Assembly (NCBI RefSeq): GCF_003260995.1
Contig: NZ_CP030040.1
Coordinates: forward strand, 1,401,736 to 1,465,735
Direction of reading: 5' to 3'
Length of the DNA stretch: 64,000 nucleotides
Origin: Acetobacterium sp. KB-1
Lineage (GTDB): Bacteria; Bacillota; Clostridia; Eubacteriales; Eubacteriaceae
This document shows positions 9,119-19,441 of the stretch, in pieces (within the stretch, counting starts at the first letter, position 1; the number at the start of each line of letters is the position of its first letter). A program made the translations under genes and the position numbers. The notes beneath the pieces are model-generated. The model did not search any database. It was not told where the DNA came from and saw only the letters and a list, made by a program, of their open reading frames with translations.

Positions 9119-12100
9119 TTAGTTTTTCCGATCCAGATTTCGTTTGGCGGTTTCCATCATCAGTTTGATGCGGTTTAGCTGATTGACTTCACTTGCTCCC
9201 GGGTCGTAGTCGATGGGGGCAATATTTGCGCGCGGATATTTTTGGCGGATCGGTTTGATCATCCCTTTTCCCATCACGTGGTTGGGCAGGCAGGCAAAGG
9301 GTTGAACACAAACAATATTCTCTACCCCATCTTCGATCAACTCCATCATTTCGGCGGTTAAGAACCAACCTTCCCCACCCTGATTACCAAGGGAAATCAG
9401 TTCCTGGGCTTTACCCGCCTTTTTCTCAATGGTGGATGGGGCATGGAAGTGGGTGCTGGCATCCAGGGCAAGCTTCATGTTTTTTCGGGAAAACTCCAAA
9501 AATTTAATCAGCAGTTTGGCACGTTTCATGGATTTTCGTTTACCTGAGAGTTCTTCGTATTTAAAGACCTGATTGTAAGCGCAATATAGAAAGAAATCCA
9601 TCAGGTCCGGCATAACCACCTCGGCACCTTCTGCTTCTAAGACTAACTGGAGGTTATTATTGGCCGTGGGATGGTATTTAACCAGGATTTCTCCAACGAT
9701 GGCAACCTTTGGCCGTTTTTTATCCGTTCGGGGCAGGGCATCAAATTCGTTGACAATCGCCCGAACATTTTCTTTGAAATCACGAAGTTTGCCATTTTTT
9801 AAACTGGCTTTTATTTTTTTGCGCCAAGATTGATACAATTCTTCAGTGGATCCGGGGTGCAGTTCATAAGGCCTTGTACCGCTGACCACCCGTTGCAGCA
9901 GATCACCATAAACAATCCCCACCAGCAGCCGCGCTAACAGCGGTAGACTGAGCTTAAACCCGGGATTCTTCTCCAAACCAATGGCACTCAGTGAAATAAC
10001 CGGAATTTGCGACATACCGGCCGATTCCAGCGCTTTTCTGATAAACGCCACATAGTTGGAGGCACGGCAGGGTCCGCCGGTCTGAGTCATTAATACGGAG
10101 ACATTATCAAGATCGTATTTTCCTGATTTCAGTGCTGCCATAATCTGACCCGTCGTAATAATGGTGGGATAGCAAGCGTCATTATTGACATAGGTTAACC
10201 CTTCGTCAATGGCCGCATTATCAACGCTGGGCATGACCTCGATGTGATAACCATATTTTTCCATTGCCTCTTCCAGAAAGTCAAAATGGATCGGTGACAT
10301 CTGAGGAGCCAGCAGCGTATGCTTCTTTTTCATCGCTTTAGTAAAAATCACCCGTTGGTTCATCAGGGTTGGGTCCACGACAATATTATTTTTCTCCCGC
10401 TCGATCATTGCTGCTTTAAGGGATCGCATTCGAATCCGGATGGCACCGAGATTGTTGACCTCGTCAATTTTAATCAGGGTATAAATATTGCCGTGACTTT
10501 CCAGGATTTCCTGCGTCTGCTCCGAGGTCACCGCATCCAATCCGCAGCCAAAGGAAGTCAACTGTACCAGCTCCAGAAAATCATGCTGATTAACCACCTC
10601 CGCCGCCTTATATAAACGGCTGTGATACTTCCATTGATCCAGGACTCGGAAGCGCTGCTCTTCTTTGGGATGATAGAGATGAGCAATGGCGTCTTCGGTA
10701 AGTACAGCCATGTCCAGGCCGGTAATGATATGATCCAGACCATGATTGACTTCGGGGTCAATGTGATAGGGCCGACCAGCCAGAACAATTCCCTTTTGCC
10801 CGGTTTCTTTTAGATATGCAATGGTTTCTTCCCCTTTTTTCTCCATATCCCGCCGGAAAGCGTCTTTTTGCGCAATGGCAGCTTTCATGGCCGCAGTAAT
10901 TTCTTGACGAGTGATACCAAAGGCGCCAAAAATTTCGGCTAATCGTTCTTCCAACCGTAAATCATTATCAAAGGGCAAAAACGGATTTAAGAAAGTAATA
11001 CCTTCTTTTTGCACATCATCCTGATTGTGTTTAATGGTTTCGGGATACGACATGACAATGGGACAATTGTACCAGTTATCAACATCATCAAATTCTTTTT
11101 CCTCATAGGGAATACAGGGATAAAAAATCAGACTGACACCCTGATCCAGCAGTGCCTGAATATGACCATGAGCCAATTTGGCCGGATAGCAGACCGACTC
11201 AGACGGAATGCTCTCCATCCCTTTTTCGTAAATTTTACGATTGGATTCCGGAGATAGTACCACCCGGTAACCCAGTTGGGTAAAAAAAGTATGCCAGAAG
11301 GGGTAATTTTCATAGAGATTTAAAACCCGGGGGATACCGATATTACCGCGCGGTGCTTCTGCTTCCGGCAACGCGGGATAATCAAAAATCCGCTGATACT
11401 TATATTGATAGAGATTCGGTAGATCAGCATTTTTTTTGACATTACCTTCACCAATCTCGCACCGGTTTCCGGTGATGTGTCGGCTGCCGTCGTTAAAGCG
11501 ATTAATCGTCAGCAGACAATTGTTACTGCAACCGCCGCAGCGTTTGTGACCGACTTCCACCGCAAAATCGTCCAGCGCTGCTAAACCTAAAAGATTGCTG
11601 CGTTCGCCTGGGCGATAATTTTCCCGGGCAATCAGAGCTGCTCCAAAGGCCCCCATCAAGCCCGCAATATCCGGGCGAATCACTTCTTTTTCGGTTATTT
11701 TTTCAAAGGTCCGCAGTACCGCTTGATTGTTAAAGGTTCCCCCCTGAACGATGATATGTTCGCCCAGTTCTTTGGGATTATGAATTTTGATAACCTTCTG
11801 CAAAGCGTTCTTGATGACCGAATAAGACAGACCTGCAGAGATATCCCCCACTTCGGCGCCTTCTTTCTGGGACTGTTTAACCTTGGAATTCATAAAAACA
11901 GTACAGCGGGTCCCCAGATCGACTGGCTTTTCCGCCATCAACGCAGCTTCGACAAAGGCCTGCATATCAAGATCCAATGATTTAGCAAAGGTCTCCAGAA
12001 ACGAACCGCAACCCGAGGAGCAAGCTTCATTGAGAATAATACTGTCGATGGTACCGTTTTTAATCTTCATGCACTTCATATCCTGGCCGCCGATGTCGAG

Positions 12101-13354
12101 GATAAAATCGACCTCAGGACAAAAATATTTTGCACCCTTATAGTGGGCAATGGTTTCAATTTCGCCGATGTCAATTTTTAATGCTTTTTTGATCAAACTT
12201 TCACCATAGCCGGTAACCGTCGAGTTACCAATCGTAACATCCGCCGGCAGCAATCCGTAGATTTCTTTGATAATTTTAATCGATTGAGCCAGTGGACTCC
12301 CCTCGTTGCCACCATAGTAACTGTACAGTAATGCACCATCACCATCGATCACAACGGCCTTGGTAGTGGTCGAACCGACATCGATCCCTAAAAAGCAGCA
12401 CCCGTGATGGTCTTTTAGCGCTTTTTTGACGACCTGATTTTTATCATGACGTTGCCGAAATTGCGTAAGCTCTTCCCGATTTTTAAACAGCGGTTCCAGC
12501 CGACCGACTTCATTTTCTGAAACTGCATCCAGGTTTTCAACGGCCGTAACCAGCTCTTTCAAATGCATTTTTTCTTCTTTTTCAGCCGAATAGGCGGCCC
12601 CGATGGCGACAAAGAGATTGGATTTTTCGGGAAAAATAATCTGTTCTTTTGTGAGTTTCAGGGTTTCGATAAAGCGCTGTCGCAATTCCGACAGGAAATA
12701 AAGGGGTCCCCCTAGAAAAGCTACGTTCCCGCGGATCGGATGTCCGCAGGCCAATCCGCTGATAGTCTGATTAACCACCGCCTGAAAAATTGAAGCCGCG
12801 ATATCCGCTTTCTCTGCCCCTTCATTAATTAGCGGCTGGATATCCGTTTTGGAAAAAACACCGCATCGTGATGCGATCGGATAAATCATCGTGTGGGTTT
12901 TGGACAATTCGTTGAGTCCCTCGGCATCGGTTTTTAGAAGCGTTGCCATCTGATCCACAAAAGCACCGGTTCCCCCGGCACAGGTACCGTTCATCCGCTG
13001 TTCGATGGTTCCGGTAAAAAAGGTGATCTTGGCATCTTCGCCGCCTAACTCAATGGCAACCTCGGTCTTGGGAATAACCCGGTCTACCGCCAGCGTGCTG
13101 GCCACGACCTCCTGAACAAAGGGAATTCCCAACCACTGGGAAATCATCAGTCCGCCGGATCCGGTGACACAAACCCGTGTCTCCAAATCCCCCAACTTTT
13201 GATAGGTTTCTTTTAACAGGTTAACAATAGTAACCTTGATGTTTGATAAATGACGCCGATACTCTTCATAGATGATTTCGTTTTTGCCGTCAATAACCAC
13301 CACTTTAATGGTCGTGGAGCCGATATCGATACCCATTTTGTAATTGTTCTTCAT
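9119..13354 (-). CDS. fused 2-hydroxyacyl-CoA dehydratase activase-type protein with DUF2229 region
   Basis: This 1411-residue protein has two tandem ASKHA ATPase domains of the BadF/BcrA/HgdC type (GIDIGSTT at 8-15, GIDVGSTT at 323-330). Each has the cysteines that in activases bridge a [4Fe-4S] cluster (C125 in GTCAGGTG and C164 in SRCGVF; C444/C448 in EACSSGCGS and C483 in TRCTVF). [11 protein letters not shown] motif follows near residue 617, and the C-terminal 700 residues match the dehydratase-like COG3580/COG3581 (DUF2229) region. Activases use ATP to drive one electron at very low potential into a partner; here activase and a partner-like part are one chain. The substrate is unknown. 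AGAGG lies a little far (13 bases) from the ATG. Confidence 0.87.
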
Positions 13355-13394: not shown

Positions 13395-14939
13395 TTATCT
13401 TATTTTTTCATACGATTGATATAAGGGTTTTACCCGACGATATAATTGCTTGTATAGTCTATTATAAATTTCTGTATATTTTATTACATTTTTCGGATTG
13501 GGTTCAAAAATCTGTGATTTTCGAATCATCGCCTTACTGGCGGTTTTGATATCCGGATAATGGTTTAAGCCCACAAAGGTGGCAATAGCAGCACCTAATC
13601 CGGTGGTTTCAAAGGTCTGCACCCGATAAACCGGGCGGTTTAAAACATCTGCCATGATCTGAGCCACACCATCACTGCGAGAGCCCCCGCCAGACAGACC
13701 AACGGCCTGAATTGGTACCTTTGTCTTTCTTTCAATCAGTTTTAGTCCTTCTAACAAGGCATATCCCAGGCCTTCGATAATGGCCCGGTAAAGATGGCGT
13801 TTATCATGTCCTTCACTAAATCCCATAAAGGTCCCCCGCGCTTCCGGCCGAAAAGCTTCCCGCCCCCAGTAGGGCTGATGAATCAGGCCATCCGCTCCCG
13901 GTGGGGTCGCTTCCAGATAGCCTTCCAGGATCTCATGGATATCTTTGGGATCAGTCTGATCAAGAAATTCTTTCGTGTACCAGTCCACCATCCAAAATCC
14001 ATGATAGATGGTAACTTCCGGATTATAGCAGTCATTCTCAACCGCCGCAAAAGCGGGATAAAAAGGATAGAGCTCCACGTATTTTTTAGTGGTAATCTCT
14101 ACCGTAGCTTGAGTTCCGAGTGAAATGCTGGCAATATCCGGGGTCAGTGCACCAACGCCCAGTGTCTCACAACCTTTATCCGTTCCCGAAGCTATAATTG
14201 GCAAACCCACCGGTAAGCCTGTGATTTCGGCCGCTTCAGCTGTCAGCTTTCCAATCACTTCACAGGAGTCGGTGAGTTCGTAACATTTTTCCGGTTCCAT
14301 TTGAAGAATCTGACTTTTAACATCATACTTGCCGCACCACTGCTTCTTTTTCGTATCAAAAGGCAGATGTCCGGCGGTATTAGAACGGCTGTCGGCGATG
14401 TTTCCGGTTAAGCGGGTCAAAAAATAGGTCGAAAGAAAAACAACCTTGTGGGTTTTGGCCCAGATGTCCGGCTCCGAAACCTTAATCCAATTAACATGGG
14501 CAGTTCTACTGAATGATTTTGCATAACCACTAAAACCAATCGTTTTAAAAAGCAGGTCGTAGGGCCAGGGATAGGGCAGTGGTTCAGTCAATTCCCGGCG
14601 ATCCAGCCAACTGATAAAATCACGCAGGGGTTTTCCGCGTTCATCTACCACGGTAATGACATCACGCTGACAGGACACCGTCATGCCTCGAATCGTAAGG
14701 AACAAATCCGGCTGTTTAACCTTCAGCTCACAAACAACCTTAACCAGAGCCTCCCAGAACATTTCTGGTGAAGCTTCCTTCCATTGAAAATGCTTTGAAT
14801 AATAACCCGTAAATAATTCTTCGCTTTTTGCCAGCTCATTGCCCTGCTCGTCAAAAAGAATTCCTCGGAGTCCTCTGGTGCCACAATCGATAGTTAAAAC
14901 CGAGTTCTTTTTTATGATGCTCTTTATCGTGTTGTTCAA
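13395..14939 (-). CDS. FGGY family carbohydrate kinase (xylulokinase-like)
   Basis: A 514-residue ASKHA-fold sugar kinase. The N-terminal phosphate-1 motif is DCGTRGLRG (18-26), followed by the FGGY signature regions and GLSGGGSRSDGVAQIMAD near residue 417, which matches FGGY signature 2. The family phosphorylates xylulose, ribulose, glycerol or similar polyols; which one cannot be told. The start is a TTG (14937-14939) with GGGAG eight bases upstream; the frame is closed by a TGA immediately before, so no ATG start is possible upstream. It has its own promoter and lies 5' of the dehydratase-activase gene with a 40-nt gap, so the two are probably co-transcribed. Confidence 0.85.
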   Translation of the reverse strand: MNNTIKSIIKKNSVLTIDCGTRGLRGILFDEQGNELAKSEELFTGYYSKHFQWKEASPEMFWEALVKVVCELKVKQPDLFLTIRGMTVSCQRDVITVVDERGKPLRDFISWLDRRELTEPLPYPWPYDLLFKTIGFSGYAKSFSRTAHVNWIKVSEPDIWAKTHKVVFLSTYFLTRLTGNIADSRSNTAGHLPFDTKKKQWCGKYDVKSQILQMEPEKCYELTDSCEVIGKLTAEAAEITGLPVGLPIIASGTDKGCETLGVGALTPDIASISLGTQATVEITTKKYVELYPFYPAFAAVENDCYNPEVTIYHGFWMVDWYTKEFLDQTDPKDIHEILEGYLEATPPGADGLIHQPYWGREAFRPEARGTFMGFSEGHDKRHLYRAIIEGLGYALLEGLKLIERKTKVPIQAVGLSGGGSRSDGVAQIMADVLNRPVYRVQTFETTGLGAAIATFVGLNHYPDIKTASKAMIRKSQIFEPNPKNVIKYTEIYNRLYKQLYRRVKPLYQSYEKIR

Positions 14940-15320: not shown

Positions 15321-16148
15321 TTATAGTTTGATATCTTTGAAGTCCTTAACCTGTTTGGTAATGGCAATTTCGGTTGGGAGACGTTCGATGCTGGATGCTC
15401 CGAAGAAGCCGCAGACGCCTTTTGTCCGATCGAGGACATATTTGGCATCTTCCGGTTCCGCCACCGGGCCACCGTGGACAATGACCATCACATCGGGATT
15501 GATGGCTTTTCCGGCATCACAGATTTCCTGGGTCAGTTTGACACAATCATCAAGGGTTTTCGCTGACGAGGCGCCAATGCTCCCTTTGGTTGTCAGTCCC
15601 ATATGGGCAACCAGGACATCGGCTCCGGCTTTAGCCATTTTTTCGGCCTCTTCCACGTTAAACACATAGGGTGTGGTTACCAGATCTAGCTCATGGGCTT
15701 TTTTTATCATCTCAACTTCCAGATCATAACCCATGTTGGTTTCTTCCAGGTTTTGTCTAAATACGCCATCGATTAAGCCGACTGTGGGGAAATTTTGAAC
15801 CCCGGAGAACCCGGCTTCTTTGACCTGTTTTAAAAACATTTCCATATCTCTAAACGGATCCGTTCCGCAGACCCCAGCCAAAACTGGCGTGTCCTTGACA
15901 ATTGTGACGACTTCTCTGGCCATGTCCATGACAATGGCATTGGCATCCCCATAGGATAACAGCCCGGCTAAAGAACCACGACCTGCCATCCGGTACCGGC
16001 CGGAATTATAAATAATAATCAGATCCACGCCACCGGCTTCCGCGCATTTGGCAGAAATTCCGGTGCCAGCTCCGGCACCAACCACCGAAATCCCTTTTGT
16101 TTCTTGTTCTCTTAACCGTCTTAATACTTCTTCTCGTTTTATTGCCAT
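15321..16148 (-). CDS. phosphoenolpyruvate hydrolase family TIM-barrel protein
   Basis: A 275-residue protein of the PEP_hydrolase/TIM-barrel family: [18 protein letters not shown] at the N-terminus, then [16 protein letters not shown], a [14 protein letters not shown] strand and [12 protein letters not shown] at the C-terminus. The family name is automatic; the biochemical activity is poorly established. AAGGAG precedes the ATG. It lies 23 nt after the Tm-1-like gene and is the second gene of a sigma-54-type operon. The same domain forms the N-terminal half of the adjacent regulator, and plant Tm-1 resistance proteins join a UPF0261 domain to a TIM barrel of this kind. Confidence 0.87.
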
Positions 16149-16171
16149 GTTATTTTCTCCTTCACTCTTCT

Positions 16172-17380
16172 TTATCTTTCAAGCATTGAAATCAATTTTT
16201 TAGCCATTGCCAGGGCAAAGGCTTCGTCGTTGATATCGGTATCCATTTCCACCAGTTCAACTTTATCTTTTATATTTGCCCGCAATTGTGCAAACAATTC
16301 GGCATCCTCTTCCGGGCCATAAAATGGTGCCCCTTCCACATCGATAGCTGAAACACCTTTTAATGGAATAAACAAGGCAACCGGCCCGGTGGCCATATTT
16401 AGCTTACCGGCAATAATTTTCCCCATCTGGGAGCATTCATCGACCGTGGTCCGCATCAGGGTGACGCTGGCATTATGTTTGTACAGGTTGCGACTTTTGT
16501 ACTTTTCTGGAACGGTTTCAATAGCGCCAAAATTAACCATATCCAATGCGCCCACCGAAACGACCTCAGGGATTCCCGCTTTGGCAGCCGCTTCTAACCG
16601 GGTTGGTCCGGCCGTAAAGACACCGCCGGCCACCTCATCGCACCATTCGGTCGTGGTGGCGTCAAAAACGCCTTTGATAAACCCGGCTTCAATCAGACTT
16701 TCCATGGCCATGCCCCCAGCCCCAGTGGCGTGGAACACCAGTACCTCGTAGCCCTGATCTTCCAGGTATTCTCTGGCAGCGGTTACACAAGGCGTTGTGA
16801 CCCCAAACATCGTGGCCGCCAGCAATGGTTTCTCTTCTTTAAGTGCTGGAATATCAAAGCTGGCCATCCCGGCAATGGCATTGGCAGCGTTAGCTAAAAT
16901 ATGATTGGAAATGCTATTGATCCCGGAAATATCCACCACTGAATACATCATGGTGATATCTTTCTCCCCAACATAGGGACGGGTATCACCCGAAGCTACG
17001 GTAGAAACCATAATCTTAGGCACACCCACCGGCAGACTTCTCATGGCAAAGGTGCCAATAGTCGTTCCGGCAGAGCCGCCGAGACTAATCATTCCGTCAA
17101 CCTTGCCCTGGTCATAAAGGTCCTTGGTGATTTTAGCCGCTCCAGCCATCATGACATCAATGCCCAGACCGCGATCATGTTGTTGCCGTAACTCTTCTAG
17201 GGATGACCCGCCAGCGATTGCAACCGCCTCACTGCTAACATCCGGGACAAATAACGGCTCCCCAATAACCCCGCAGTTGATTGTGGTGGTACTAACCCCC
17301 CGCTTTTCAATCAATTCTTTGATAAACTTGAATTCATGACCCTTGGTATCAAAGGTCCCTACAATTAATACGTTTTTCAT
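16172..17380 (-). CDS. Tm-1-like ATP-binding protein (UPF0261)
   Basis: A 402-residue soluble protein of the UPF0261/Tm-1-like family: [14 protein letters not shown] at the N-terminus, GLGGSAGTT-like [14 protein letters not shown] in the first half, and [15 protein letters not shown] in the second. In tomato the homologous domain of Tm-1 binds a tobamovirus replication protein; the bacterial role is unknown. I start it at the ATG ending 17380, which has AAAGGGGGG upstream. A longer frame to 17437 would begin inside the -24/-12 promoter and is rejected. It is the first gene of the operon with the PEP-hydrolase family gene. Confidence 0.87.
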
Positions 17381-17420
17381 TCCATGCCCCCCTTTAGATT
17401 TATTATTATCTTTAATAACT

Positions 17421-17437
17421 CGCAAGGTTTGTGCCAA
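17421..17437 (-). promoter_or_regulatory. sigma-54 (-24/-12) promoter
   Basis: The minus strand reads TTGGCACAAACCTTGCG, matching the sigma-54 consensus TGGCAC-N5-TTGC with exactly ten bases between the invariant GG and GC. The predicted start (about 17410) leaves a short leader containing the ribosome site of the Tm-1-like gene. The sigma-54 activator gene ends about 120 bp upstream, and rpoN is encoded at 55354-56790. Confidence 0.88.
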
Positions 17438-17460
17438 CTATTAAAACCGGCGAAGCCATT

Positions 17461-17502
17461 GTTCCCGCCATTCTAAATAGGGGAACGGGAAATGTTTTTC
17501 CC
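17461..17502. promoter_or_regulatory. candidate upstream activator sites
   Basis: Two inverted repeats share GGGAA half-sites: GTTCCC..GGGAAC (17461-17486) and GGGAAA-TGTT-TTTCCC (17487-17502). They sit 24-81 bp upstream of the -24/-12 promoter, where enhancer-binding proteins dock. Assignment to the neighbouring activator is inferred. Confidence 0.45.
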
Positions 17503-17516
17503 AGACAAATGTAATA

Positions 17517-17553
17517 TGGGCAATATTTACTCATTTCGAGTAGATATTGCCCA
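17517..17553. other. 16-bp inverted repeat after the sigma-54 activator gene
   Basis: TGGGCAATATTTACTC / GAGTAGATATTGCCCA with a 5-nt loop and one mismatch. On the plus strand it is followed by CTTTTTT, but the flanking gene ends on the minus strand, where the U tract would precede the stem. It may be a Rho-type 3' end stabiliser, part of the regulatory region, or an imperfect terminator. Confidence 0.5.
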
Positions 17554-17558
17554 CTTTT

Positions 17559-19397
17559 TTATTCCATGGATTCCTGGTCTTCCATCGATAAATTAAATTT
17601 CACTATTTTATTGTAGAGTGTCCGCCGGGAGATGCCAATCCGGTTCGCTGCTTCGGTTCGATTCCATCGGCATGCCTTGAGGACACCCAATATGTAGGTA
17701 CTTTCCAGGTGTTCCTTGCTGGTAGTCAACAGATCTGAACCCAACTGGTTCTTTAGCTGGGTTTTTGGTTTGTGCAATTCTTCCACCACCATATCATCCC
17801 GACGGATATATTTCCCTTCACTGAGAATCACCGCTCTTTCGAGCACATGCTTCATTTCCCGAACATTACCTGGCCAGGGGCATTCCATTAAATAGGCCAT
17901 CGCATCCGGAGCCAGTCGTTTTTCCTCGAGTTGATACTTTATTCTAAACTCTTCTAAAAAGCGGTTGCACAGCAGTGGAATATCCTCGGGATGACGGCGT
18001 AGCGGCGGGGTATTTATTTCCACCACGTTCAGCCGATAGTAGAGATCTTCCCGGAAACGATTCTCTGCTACCGCCTGTTTAATATCCACATTGGTGGCGC
18101 AGACGATCCGCACATCCACAGAGATGGTTTTCTCGCCCCCGACACGTTCAAATTCCTGCTGCTGAATAATCCGCAGTACCTTCGCCTGGAGATCGACATC
18201 CATTTCACCGATCTCATCCAGAAACAGGGTTCCATGGTTGGCCAGTTCAAATTTCCCCAGCCGCCGCTTGTCGGCTCCGGTAAACGCTCCCTTTTCATGA
18301 CCAAACAGCTCACTTTCCAGCAAGTTGGGCGGCAAGGCCGCACAATTTACCTTAATCAGCGAACCCAGACAACGTTTACTGTTAAAATGCAGCGCTTTGG
18401 CGACCAGTTCTTTCCCGGTTCCACTTTCGCCCTGAATTAGAACATTGACGTCTTTATCGGCCACCTTATTAATTAGTTCATACATGTCCTGCATGATCAC
18501 GCTTTGGCCGACAATTTCATCAAAGCCCCGCTTTTTTAACAGTTCTTTTTTTAAATGCTTGTTTTCCTGCTTTAATTTATAATAATTTTTAAATTTATCG
18601 GTCGTTTCTGATATCGCCAGTTCAGTGGGGATTCGCTCAAAGCTGGAGCCGCCGATGTAACCGATGGTCTGGGAATTTTTATAAAAATAATAGGCGTCCT
18701 CCGGAGAATTAATGGGTCCGCCATAAATCATCTTGTAAGTTTGGGGATTGATCTGATCGACTGCTGCAAAAATCGCTTCTGTCATTTCCAGACATTCATT
18801 AATGGTGGAAAAAACCTTGCCGGATTTTTCGCCTCCCCGGGTCCAGCCAAAATGGGCACAGACCACATCCACACCCACCCGGGTCATTGCTCGGGCCTGT
18901 TTTTCATCAAAGACAAAAGCAATGGTAAAGAGATTGGCCGCCACCGCTTTTTTCATAAATTCTATTTCCTGGTCGTAGCCCAGCCCTTTTTCCTCCAGCC
19001 ATTCCCGGAATTGCCCATCAATCAGACCAATCGTCGGAAAATTATTGACACCGCTAAAGCCCAGTTCCCGGACTTTTTGAATCAGCTCCTGATGGGAATA
19101 GTTGGGATCGGTGGCGTTAATGCCGCAGATCACGGCCCGATCTTTAAGTTTTGGCAGTATTTCACGGCTGGAAAAGTCAAATACCAACTCATTACTGTTG
19201 GAAAATGGCATCATACAGCCGATTGAAGGAATCCCTGCCGATCGAAACCGCCCGGCACTCAGGGCCAGAAGCAAATCAGCCCCGCCCTTAACCGCCTGCT
19301 TGGCAAAAAGCCCGGACCCCACCGCCACGCCGATCACCGGTTTGTTCATTTTCAAACTATTCTGGATCATTTTTTCGATGGCTTCTTTTTTCTTCAT
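17559..19397 (-). CDS. sigma-54-dependent activator with PEP-hydrolase-type TIM-barrel sensor
   Basis: A 612-residue protein in three parts. Residues about 1-270 are a TIM barrel homologous to the neighbouring PEP-hydrolase family protein (shared [27 protein letters not shown] and [12 protein letters not shown]). A charged linker (about 274-290) leads to the AAA+ domain with Walker A GESGTGKE (323-330), the sigma-54 contact loop GAFTGA (370-375) and Walker [10 protein letters not shown] Fis-type helix-turn-helix ([16 protein letters not shown]) ends the chain. I use the ATG ending 19397, preceded by GGGAG; a GTG at 19409 overlaps that site. It probably activates the -24/-12 promoter of the next operon, with the barrel binding the pathway metabolite. 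Confidence 0.9.
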
Positions 19398-19441
19398 CGC
19401 TTCTCCCACTCACATAAATCTCACTTTATTATACAACCCCC

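Follow-up and report, generated by a model that had tools for sequence, protein, structure and literature searches.

Organization of the gene and its product

The genome of Acetobacterium sp. KB-1 contains, at positions 9119..13354 (reverse strand) of a 64,000-nucleotide stretch of contig NZ_CP030040.1 (positions 1,401,736 to 1,465,735; hereafter the window), a long gene whose product can be identified, with high probability, as PlsA. This iron-sulfur enzyme of anaerobes has been described before, so that the finding is largely an ordinary one. The gene is a complete open reading frame of 4,236 bp that starts with ATG and encodes a protein of 1411 amino acids, assigned as a fused PlsA-type glycerolipid ester reductase (plasmalogen synthase) from the frame itself, Pfam and NCBIfam matches, purpose-built hidden Markov models (HMMs) and agreement with the literature. 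Pfam detected PF01869 (BcrAD_BadFG) twice above cut-off, with 137 and 70.7 bits, and PF09989/DUF2229 with 314.8 bits; NCBIfam likewise placed two acyl-CoA dehydratase activase domains in the chain, the second of them (Act2, see below) being matched by TIGR00241. When the gene was compared by codon position with those of six members of the genus, differences fell mainly at third positions (against locus L041, 140 at first, 57 at second and 697 at third positions). This bias, together with at least 578 stretches encoding a relative in genome_contigs, of which the best 80 were kept, indicates that the open reading frame is not due to chance.

Domain limits were taken from HMMs built in this analysis with at most 52 diverse homologues. 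From the N-terminus, and with all coordinates on the reverse strand, the chain begins with Act1 (residues 3–290; 12485..13348), a first HgdC-type ATPase domain bearing cysteines C125 and C164 and motifs DIGSTT and ELGGED. It is followed by Act2 (residues 318–590; 11585..12403), a second HgdC-type ATPase domain with C445, C484, an extra invariant C449 and motifs DVGSTT and DIGGQD, and by a module of four cysteines (C606-x2-C609-x3-C613-x18-C632; 11459..11539) at about residues 600–640. The remainder is made up of Red1 (DUF2229/COG3580; residues 670–996; 10367..11347), which is a reductase half of the 2-hydroxyacyl-CoA dehydratase (HAD) type with C722, C764 and C937 as likely ligands, and Red2 (COG3581, PlsR-like; residues 998–1411; 9122..10363), a second HAD-type half with C1061, C1096 and C1355 as likely ligands. 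These assignments come from Foldseek, VIA-align and hhalign for Red1 and from hhalign for Red2, C764 and C1096 being placed by conservation only.

The open reading frame, Pfam and the HMMs thus agree with an earlier note, drawn from the sequence alone, that two activase domains and a COG3580/3581-like part share one chain. The latter part, presented there as a single entity, is present but actually comprises two dehydratase-type units, Red1 and Red2. Whereas HgdC/HadI activators are free-standing proteins of about 270 residues that form homodimers, both activase copies of the window protein lie in the same polypeptide.

To place this organization in context, 121 loci were examined, namely 120 fetched loci and the window. 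A single chain of more than 1250 amino acids was encoded in 105 of them, corresponding to 104 distinct chains because L054 and L077 encode an identical protein. The remaining 16 loci were 15 two-gene or split forms and L121, a metagenome contig in which a PlsA-type frame is broken into pieces of 567 and 846 amino acids, either a pseudogene or an assembly error.

Conserved cysteines and ATPase motifs

Cysteines C125, C164, C445, C449, C484, C606, C609, C613, C632, C722, C764, C937, C1061 and C1096 were present in 104/104 distinct fused chains. Somewhat less constant were C1355 (103 chains, with one gap), C1349 (102) and C747 (75). The cluster cysteines, which the earlier note had described as all kept in the window protein, are therefore invariant or nearly so across the distinct single-chain homologues. 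The ATPase motifs were conserved as well: key residues of DIGSTT and ELGGED in Act1, and of DxGSTT and DIGGQD in Act2, were invariant or nearly so in 48 aligned sequences. Loss of these motifs in homologues, which would have spoken against an ATP-driven role, was looked for in the same 48 sequences and not seen.

Each activase domain contains the two cluster cysteines per protomer expected of activases of the HAD and benzoyl-CoA reductase (BCR) superfamily, C125/C164 in Act1 and C445/C484 in Act2. In the reductase part, three cysteines per half remained invariant when split relatives were included, 722/764/937 in 40 sequences and 1061/1096/1355 in 41. The window protein has a few others, C747 in Red1 and C1258 and C1349 in Red2, so that Red1 has no more than four and Red2 no more than five. 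The halves present the features of BCR/HAD reductases, an HGD-D fold and a three-cysteine site for a putative [4Fe-4S] cluster, in which the middle cysteine is assigned by conservation.

The four-cysteine module is shared more widely. Its pattern, CxxCxxxC...C, was found in 121 of the 123 long chains, a set with one identical pair, the exceptions being L157 and L158, and it also closes all 31 of the free-standing activases compared other than the HgdC encoded by the same genome; the latter did not show this tail pattern in the same comparison. L157 and L158, together with L227, are divergent fused chains of 1348, 1434 and 1292 amino acids, respectively, devoid of the standard module. L227 lies on a plasmid of Paraclostridium bifermentans, adjoins genes for a Crp/Fnr regulator and an ABC transporter, and gave no COG3581 hit.

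Predicted fold and proposed mechanism

The protein was modelled with AlphaFold2 in two separate parts. Residues 590–1411, modelled with 50 homologues, gave a mean predicted local distance difference test (pLDDT) score of 88.2 and a predicted template modelling (pTM) score of 0.85; for residues 1–670 these values were 83.6 and 0.67. Foldseek searches of the PDB with the reductase model returned nine matches at E ≤ 0.001, all of them subunits of the double-cubane protein DCCP, 2-hydroxyisocaproyl-CoA dehydratase or benzoyl-CoA reductase, and the matches found by Foldseek and VIA-align include HadBC, DCCP (7yyl, 6eno), BzdNO and Mbd. HadBC ranked first in VIA-align 2 (3o3n_B, Z 14.5, root-mean-square deviation 4.1 over 280 residues), the aligned region, about residues 653–985, corresponding to Red1. 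For the COG3581 half, VIA-align matches were confined to common domains of the Rossmann type, with Z not above 8, and the fold of Red2 is taken from profile comparison. Here, hhalign related Red1 to Red2 with a probability of 99.8% (E 2e-30), and to the HGD-D family with 97.9% for Red1 and 97.6% for Red2; in these alignments, cysteines one and three of each half fall in the same columns as their counterparts in the partner. In profile searches of the PDB all hits were weak, to the HAD family for Red1 and to unrelated proteins for Red2. Structural matches were also obtained for the activase domains: Act1 aligned to HgdC (1hux_A) with Z 26.8 over model residues 3–262 and Act2 to the 2-hydroxyisocaproyl-CoA dehydratase activator (4ehu_B) with Z 28.3 over residues 319–583, matches to 4ehu, 9gai, 1hux and 7yyl_E falling in the range Z 24–28.

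Because each half has three invariant cysteines, and fewer than six are found in either half of the window protein, the chain resembles an activase pseudo-dimer joined to a HAD-type pseudo-heterodimer rather than a double-cubane protein. We infer the cluster types, pseudo-dimer contacts, electron path and reaction in this organism as follows. Act1 and Act2 would form one activase pseudo-dimer, with one [4Fe-4S] cluster held jointly by C125/C164 and C445/C484. Binding and hydrolysis of ATP would push a low-potential electron from this cluster into the Red1/Red2 pseudo-heterodimer, each half of which would carry a [4Fe-4S] cluster on three cysteines. With these electrons, the acyl ester at sn-1 of a phospholipid would be reduced, and elimination of water would yield the alk-1'-enyl (vinyl) ether of a plasmalogen.

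Probable assignment as the plasmalogen synthase PlsA

A single chain that unites two activase domains with a dehydratase-like module, and in which motifs and cysteines are preserved, is best read as an intramolecular ATP-driven injector of low-potential electrons. To this extent the proposal of the earlier note appears right in principle; its target, held there to be unknown, can probably be named. Single-gene PlsA enzymes are reported from Enterococcus faecalis K-4 (4,248 bp), Lactococcus cremoris (4,311 bp) and Bifidobacterium longum (4,920 bp), and are drawn in the legend to Figure 8 of that report as Act1, Act2, Red1 and Red2 (PMC12838417). The window protein has the same layout, two activation domains followed by two reduction/dehydration domains, and is like these enzymes in being encoded by one gene of similar length, in its cluster cysteines and in belonging to the BCR/HAD superfamily. 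The same report describes plasmalogen formation in E. coli with all four systems tested, those of E. faecalis, L. cremoris and B. longum and the two-gene system of Clostridium perfringens (PMC12838417). The PlsA-PlsR operon of C. perfringens has the same parts, there in two genes and here in one chain.

Full-length homology points in the same direction. The window protein is 56% identical to a relative from Enterococcus raffinosus over residues 6–1407, 54% identical to one from Listeria over 99% of the query and 51% identical to one from Collinsella over 100%; Enterococcus, Listeria and Coriobacteriales are among the plsA carriers named in the literature. The KB-1 genome contains one DUF2229 match. 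Plasmalogen-derived dimethyl acetals have been reported in Acetobacterium (PMC12062537). We consider that the window protein is a single-chain (PlsA-PlsR) PlsA, an ATP-driven glycerophospholipid ester reductase, with a probability of about 0.86; by analogy with the tested enzymes, its likely function would be ATP-driven reduction of the sn-1 ester of a phospholipid to a vinyl ether.

Several points weigh against this assignment. Kinship to the tested PlsA enzymes was judged indirectly, by layout, length and related genera. The middle cysteine of each half lies a few columns away from that of HGD-D in the profile alignments. Two other strains with PlsA homologues are reported to have made no plasmalogen themselves (PMC12838417). 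The fatty-acid table and the subspecies descriptions of PMC12062537 name different Acetobacterium strains as the one with acetals, so that the acetals support the assignment at the level of the genus only. Finally, glycerol ester reductase (Ger) has the same kind of architecture as PlsA.

Ger resembles PlsA but yields saturated alkyl ethers, at sn-1 (and sn-2), in place of vinyl ethers, and the possibility that the window protein belongs to this type is an unlikely one. Compared by description, it shares with Ger of Thermotoga maritima and Desulfatibacillum alkenivorans a PlsA-like chain with two activation domains and would likewise convert ester to ether; the Ger product is a saturated alkyl ether, and no diagnostic motif is known. 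According to PMC13274423, the Thermotogota and Desulfatibacillum enzymes have two activation domains, and PlsA and Ger cannot at present be separated by sequence. By the rule proposed there, in which a single activation domain accompanies plasmalogens in most of the genomes screened and a pair accompanies Ger, the window protein would lean to Ger. However, two PF01869 stretches were also found in 7/7 further proteins scanned, including a homologue from Enterococcus and two proteins of the two-gene type, and the published drawing of the tested plasmalogen producers shows both Act1 and Act2 (PMC12838417), so that the domain-count rule does not discriminate here. The trees described below contain no tested Ger and have no bearing on this choice. 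PlsA is preferred on the strength of the tested single-chain relatives and of the Acetobacterium acetals. In one species of the genus, a second fused paralogue (L045, genome G014) is 54% identical to the window protein and lacks the kinase neighbor described below; the two fused genes are possibly a PlsA/Ger pair.

Very improbable is an ATP-dependent 2-hydroxyacyl-CoA dehydratase of amino-acid fermentation with a fused activator. The window protein does belong to the same superfamily and, like HadBC and its activator (3o3n, 4ehu), combines activase and reductase folds with three-cysteine cluster sites. Yet the latter are separate proteins acting on a CoA ester, and the four-cysteine module is absent from the HgdC of the same genome, the one activator of this type that was compared. 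Moreover, that genome holds elsewhere, at C1:844469-847580 (L001, L035 and L036), a separate classical HgdC-type activase gene with two HGD-D genes, the fused form is present in lactic acid bacteria, and tested fused relatives are reported to make plasmalogens.

Hardly conceivable, finally, is a DCCP-like double-cubane reductase of small or unknown substrates: DCCP (7yyl, 6eno) is one of the closest fold matches to the reductase half, and the system of DCCP and its reductase shares with the window protein the fold and an ATP-driven activase, but DCCP has six cluster cysteines per subunit and the halves of the window protein have three family-wide cysteines each. Even at the maximum of four and five, these fall short of the six of the double-cubane subunit BzdN (Cys36/73/100/263/293/327), the [4Fe-4S] subunit BzdO having three (Cys95/128/380) (PMC11971306). 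The double-cubane reading was rejected on this count, and the parallel with double-cubane proteins drawn by the earlier note does not hold.

Distribution and history of the family

DUF2229 was detected in 50/61 genomes of a genus-to-order survey and in 146/159 genomes of a phylum survey. Among the matches listed in the latter, 41 genomes showed a single long frame (at least 1217 amino acids, above 270 bits) and four a frame of 979–1015 amino acids. Three layouts were distinguished: the fused chain, two genes of about 980 and 440 codons, as reported for plsA-plsR, and a three-gene split. In the two-gene loci L057–L059, the larger product is 50–51% and the smaller 44–46% identical to the window protein. 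The cut falls at the Red1/Red2 (COG3580/COG3581) junction in a single clade and reflects the existence of two genes, not processing of a chain. Three-gene split relatives occur in many Clostridia (L062–L071, L171–L196). The gene order COG3580-COG3581-activase was found in 31 of 36 split loci, the activase having the same four-cysteine tail; the other five showed no same-strand activase with a start within 4 kb, and in one of these (L178) the contig ends at the place of the third gene. No common partner of the split operons was seen by eye in 10 loci. The role of "PlsA homologues without activation domain" is called unclear in PMC13274423; these are probably the three-gene split systems, which mostly have an activase next door.

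A concatenated tree was built from 43 of 44 chosen rows and 1081 columns, L227 being dropped for lack of a COG3581 hit, and L158 and most fused rows not being among those chosen. The two-gene clade, with a Shimodaira–Hasegawa-like approximate likelihood ratio test (SH-aLRT) support of 100, was sister to 22 fused rows (92), and the fused chains of Haliovirga (L226) and L157 fell outside. With the two-gene clade as sister to fused rows and two fused outgroups, parsimony favors fission. Trees of single domains disagree: the two-gene clade is nested inside the fused forms in the Red1 tree and lies outside them in the Act1 tree. The two-gene form thus looks like a later fission of an ancestral fused chain, which is the simplest reading of trees that are not unanimous and in which long branches meet.

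A broader possibility can be put forward tentatively, namely that ATP-driven ester reductases form a larger group of which PlsA is the fused tip. In such a scheme, the three-gene systems (COG3580-COG3581-activase) common across Clostridia may have other lipid or carboxylic esters as substrates. The module of four cysteines, present in both forms and absent from the HgdC of the KB-1 genome, might be an extra [4Fe-4S] site of electron entry setting the group apart from the activases of HAD and benzoyl-CoA reductase.

Gene neighborhood

Upstream of the PlsA-type gene, at a distance of 40 bp and on the same (reverse) strand, lies a gene identified with Pfam as an FGGY-family kinase (13395..14939), which is perhaps co-transcribed with it. 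Its best match, xylulokinase, was below threshold (249 bits against a cut-off of 380). An FGGY kinase was the adjacent same-strand upstream gene in 14 of the 104 distinct fused loci and is a frequent partner in this lineage. Eight of the fused loci belong to this genus, and seven of them are among the 14; the exception is the paralogue L045. In two distinct loci the kinase gene overlaps the fused gene by 8 bp. By contrast, the upstream neighbor is a TetR-like gene in E. faecalis (PMC9702350) and in Collinsella.

On the other side of the fused gene, uppS is found 9–31 bp downstream in six of the 104 distinct loci, and in the one checked (L076) cdsA then follows. The uppS/cdsA and kinase neighbors fit a lipid setting, but they are lineage-bound and prove nothing. 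The presence of uppS with cdsA, ispG and polC nearby in some loci hinted at a role as electron donor to IspG/IspH. This candidate was set aside because the gene is also present in lactic acid bacteria relying on the mevalonate pathway. As a guide to the target the neighborhood was dropped, since none of the families next to the fused gene is shared by a majority of the loci: the four most populated clusters within 9 kb are represented in 25, 22, 16 and 15 of 105 loci (one a duplicate).

Two further observations concern the surroundings of these genes. A protein judged by eye to be a rhomboid-like membrane protein, with a cysteine-rich C-terminal part, is encoded within 9 kb of the fused gene in 22 of 105 loci (L101–L155), mostly upstream and on the opposite strand in 21; the one copy scanned gave no Pfam match at 1e-5. 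In the window itself, positions 15321–19409 are occupied by a UPF0261 gene and two genes of the PEP_hydrolase-like type. The product of one of the latter, 616 amino acids long, also includes a sigma-54 activator and a Fis-type DNA-binding domain, and the operon is perhaps self-regulated.

Implications

Proteins of this architecture are labelled in current annotation as "acyl-CoA dehydratase activase" or "2-hydroxyacyl-CoA dehydratase", whereas tested relatives with the same architecture make plasmalogens. Assignment of the window protein to PlsA removes the apparent mystery of a giant fused activase and connects the gene to plasmalogens, which are membrane lipids and have antioxidant roles. 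In acetogens, the assignment offers a candidate gene with which to ask what plasmalogens do.

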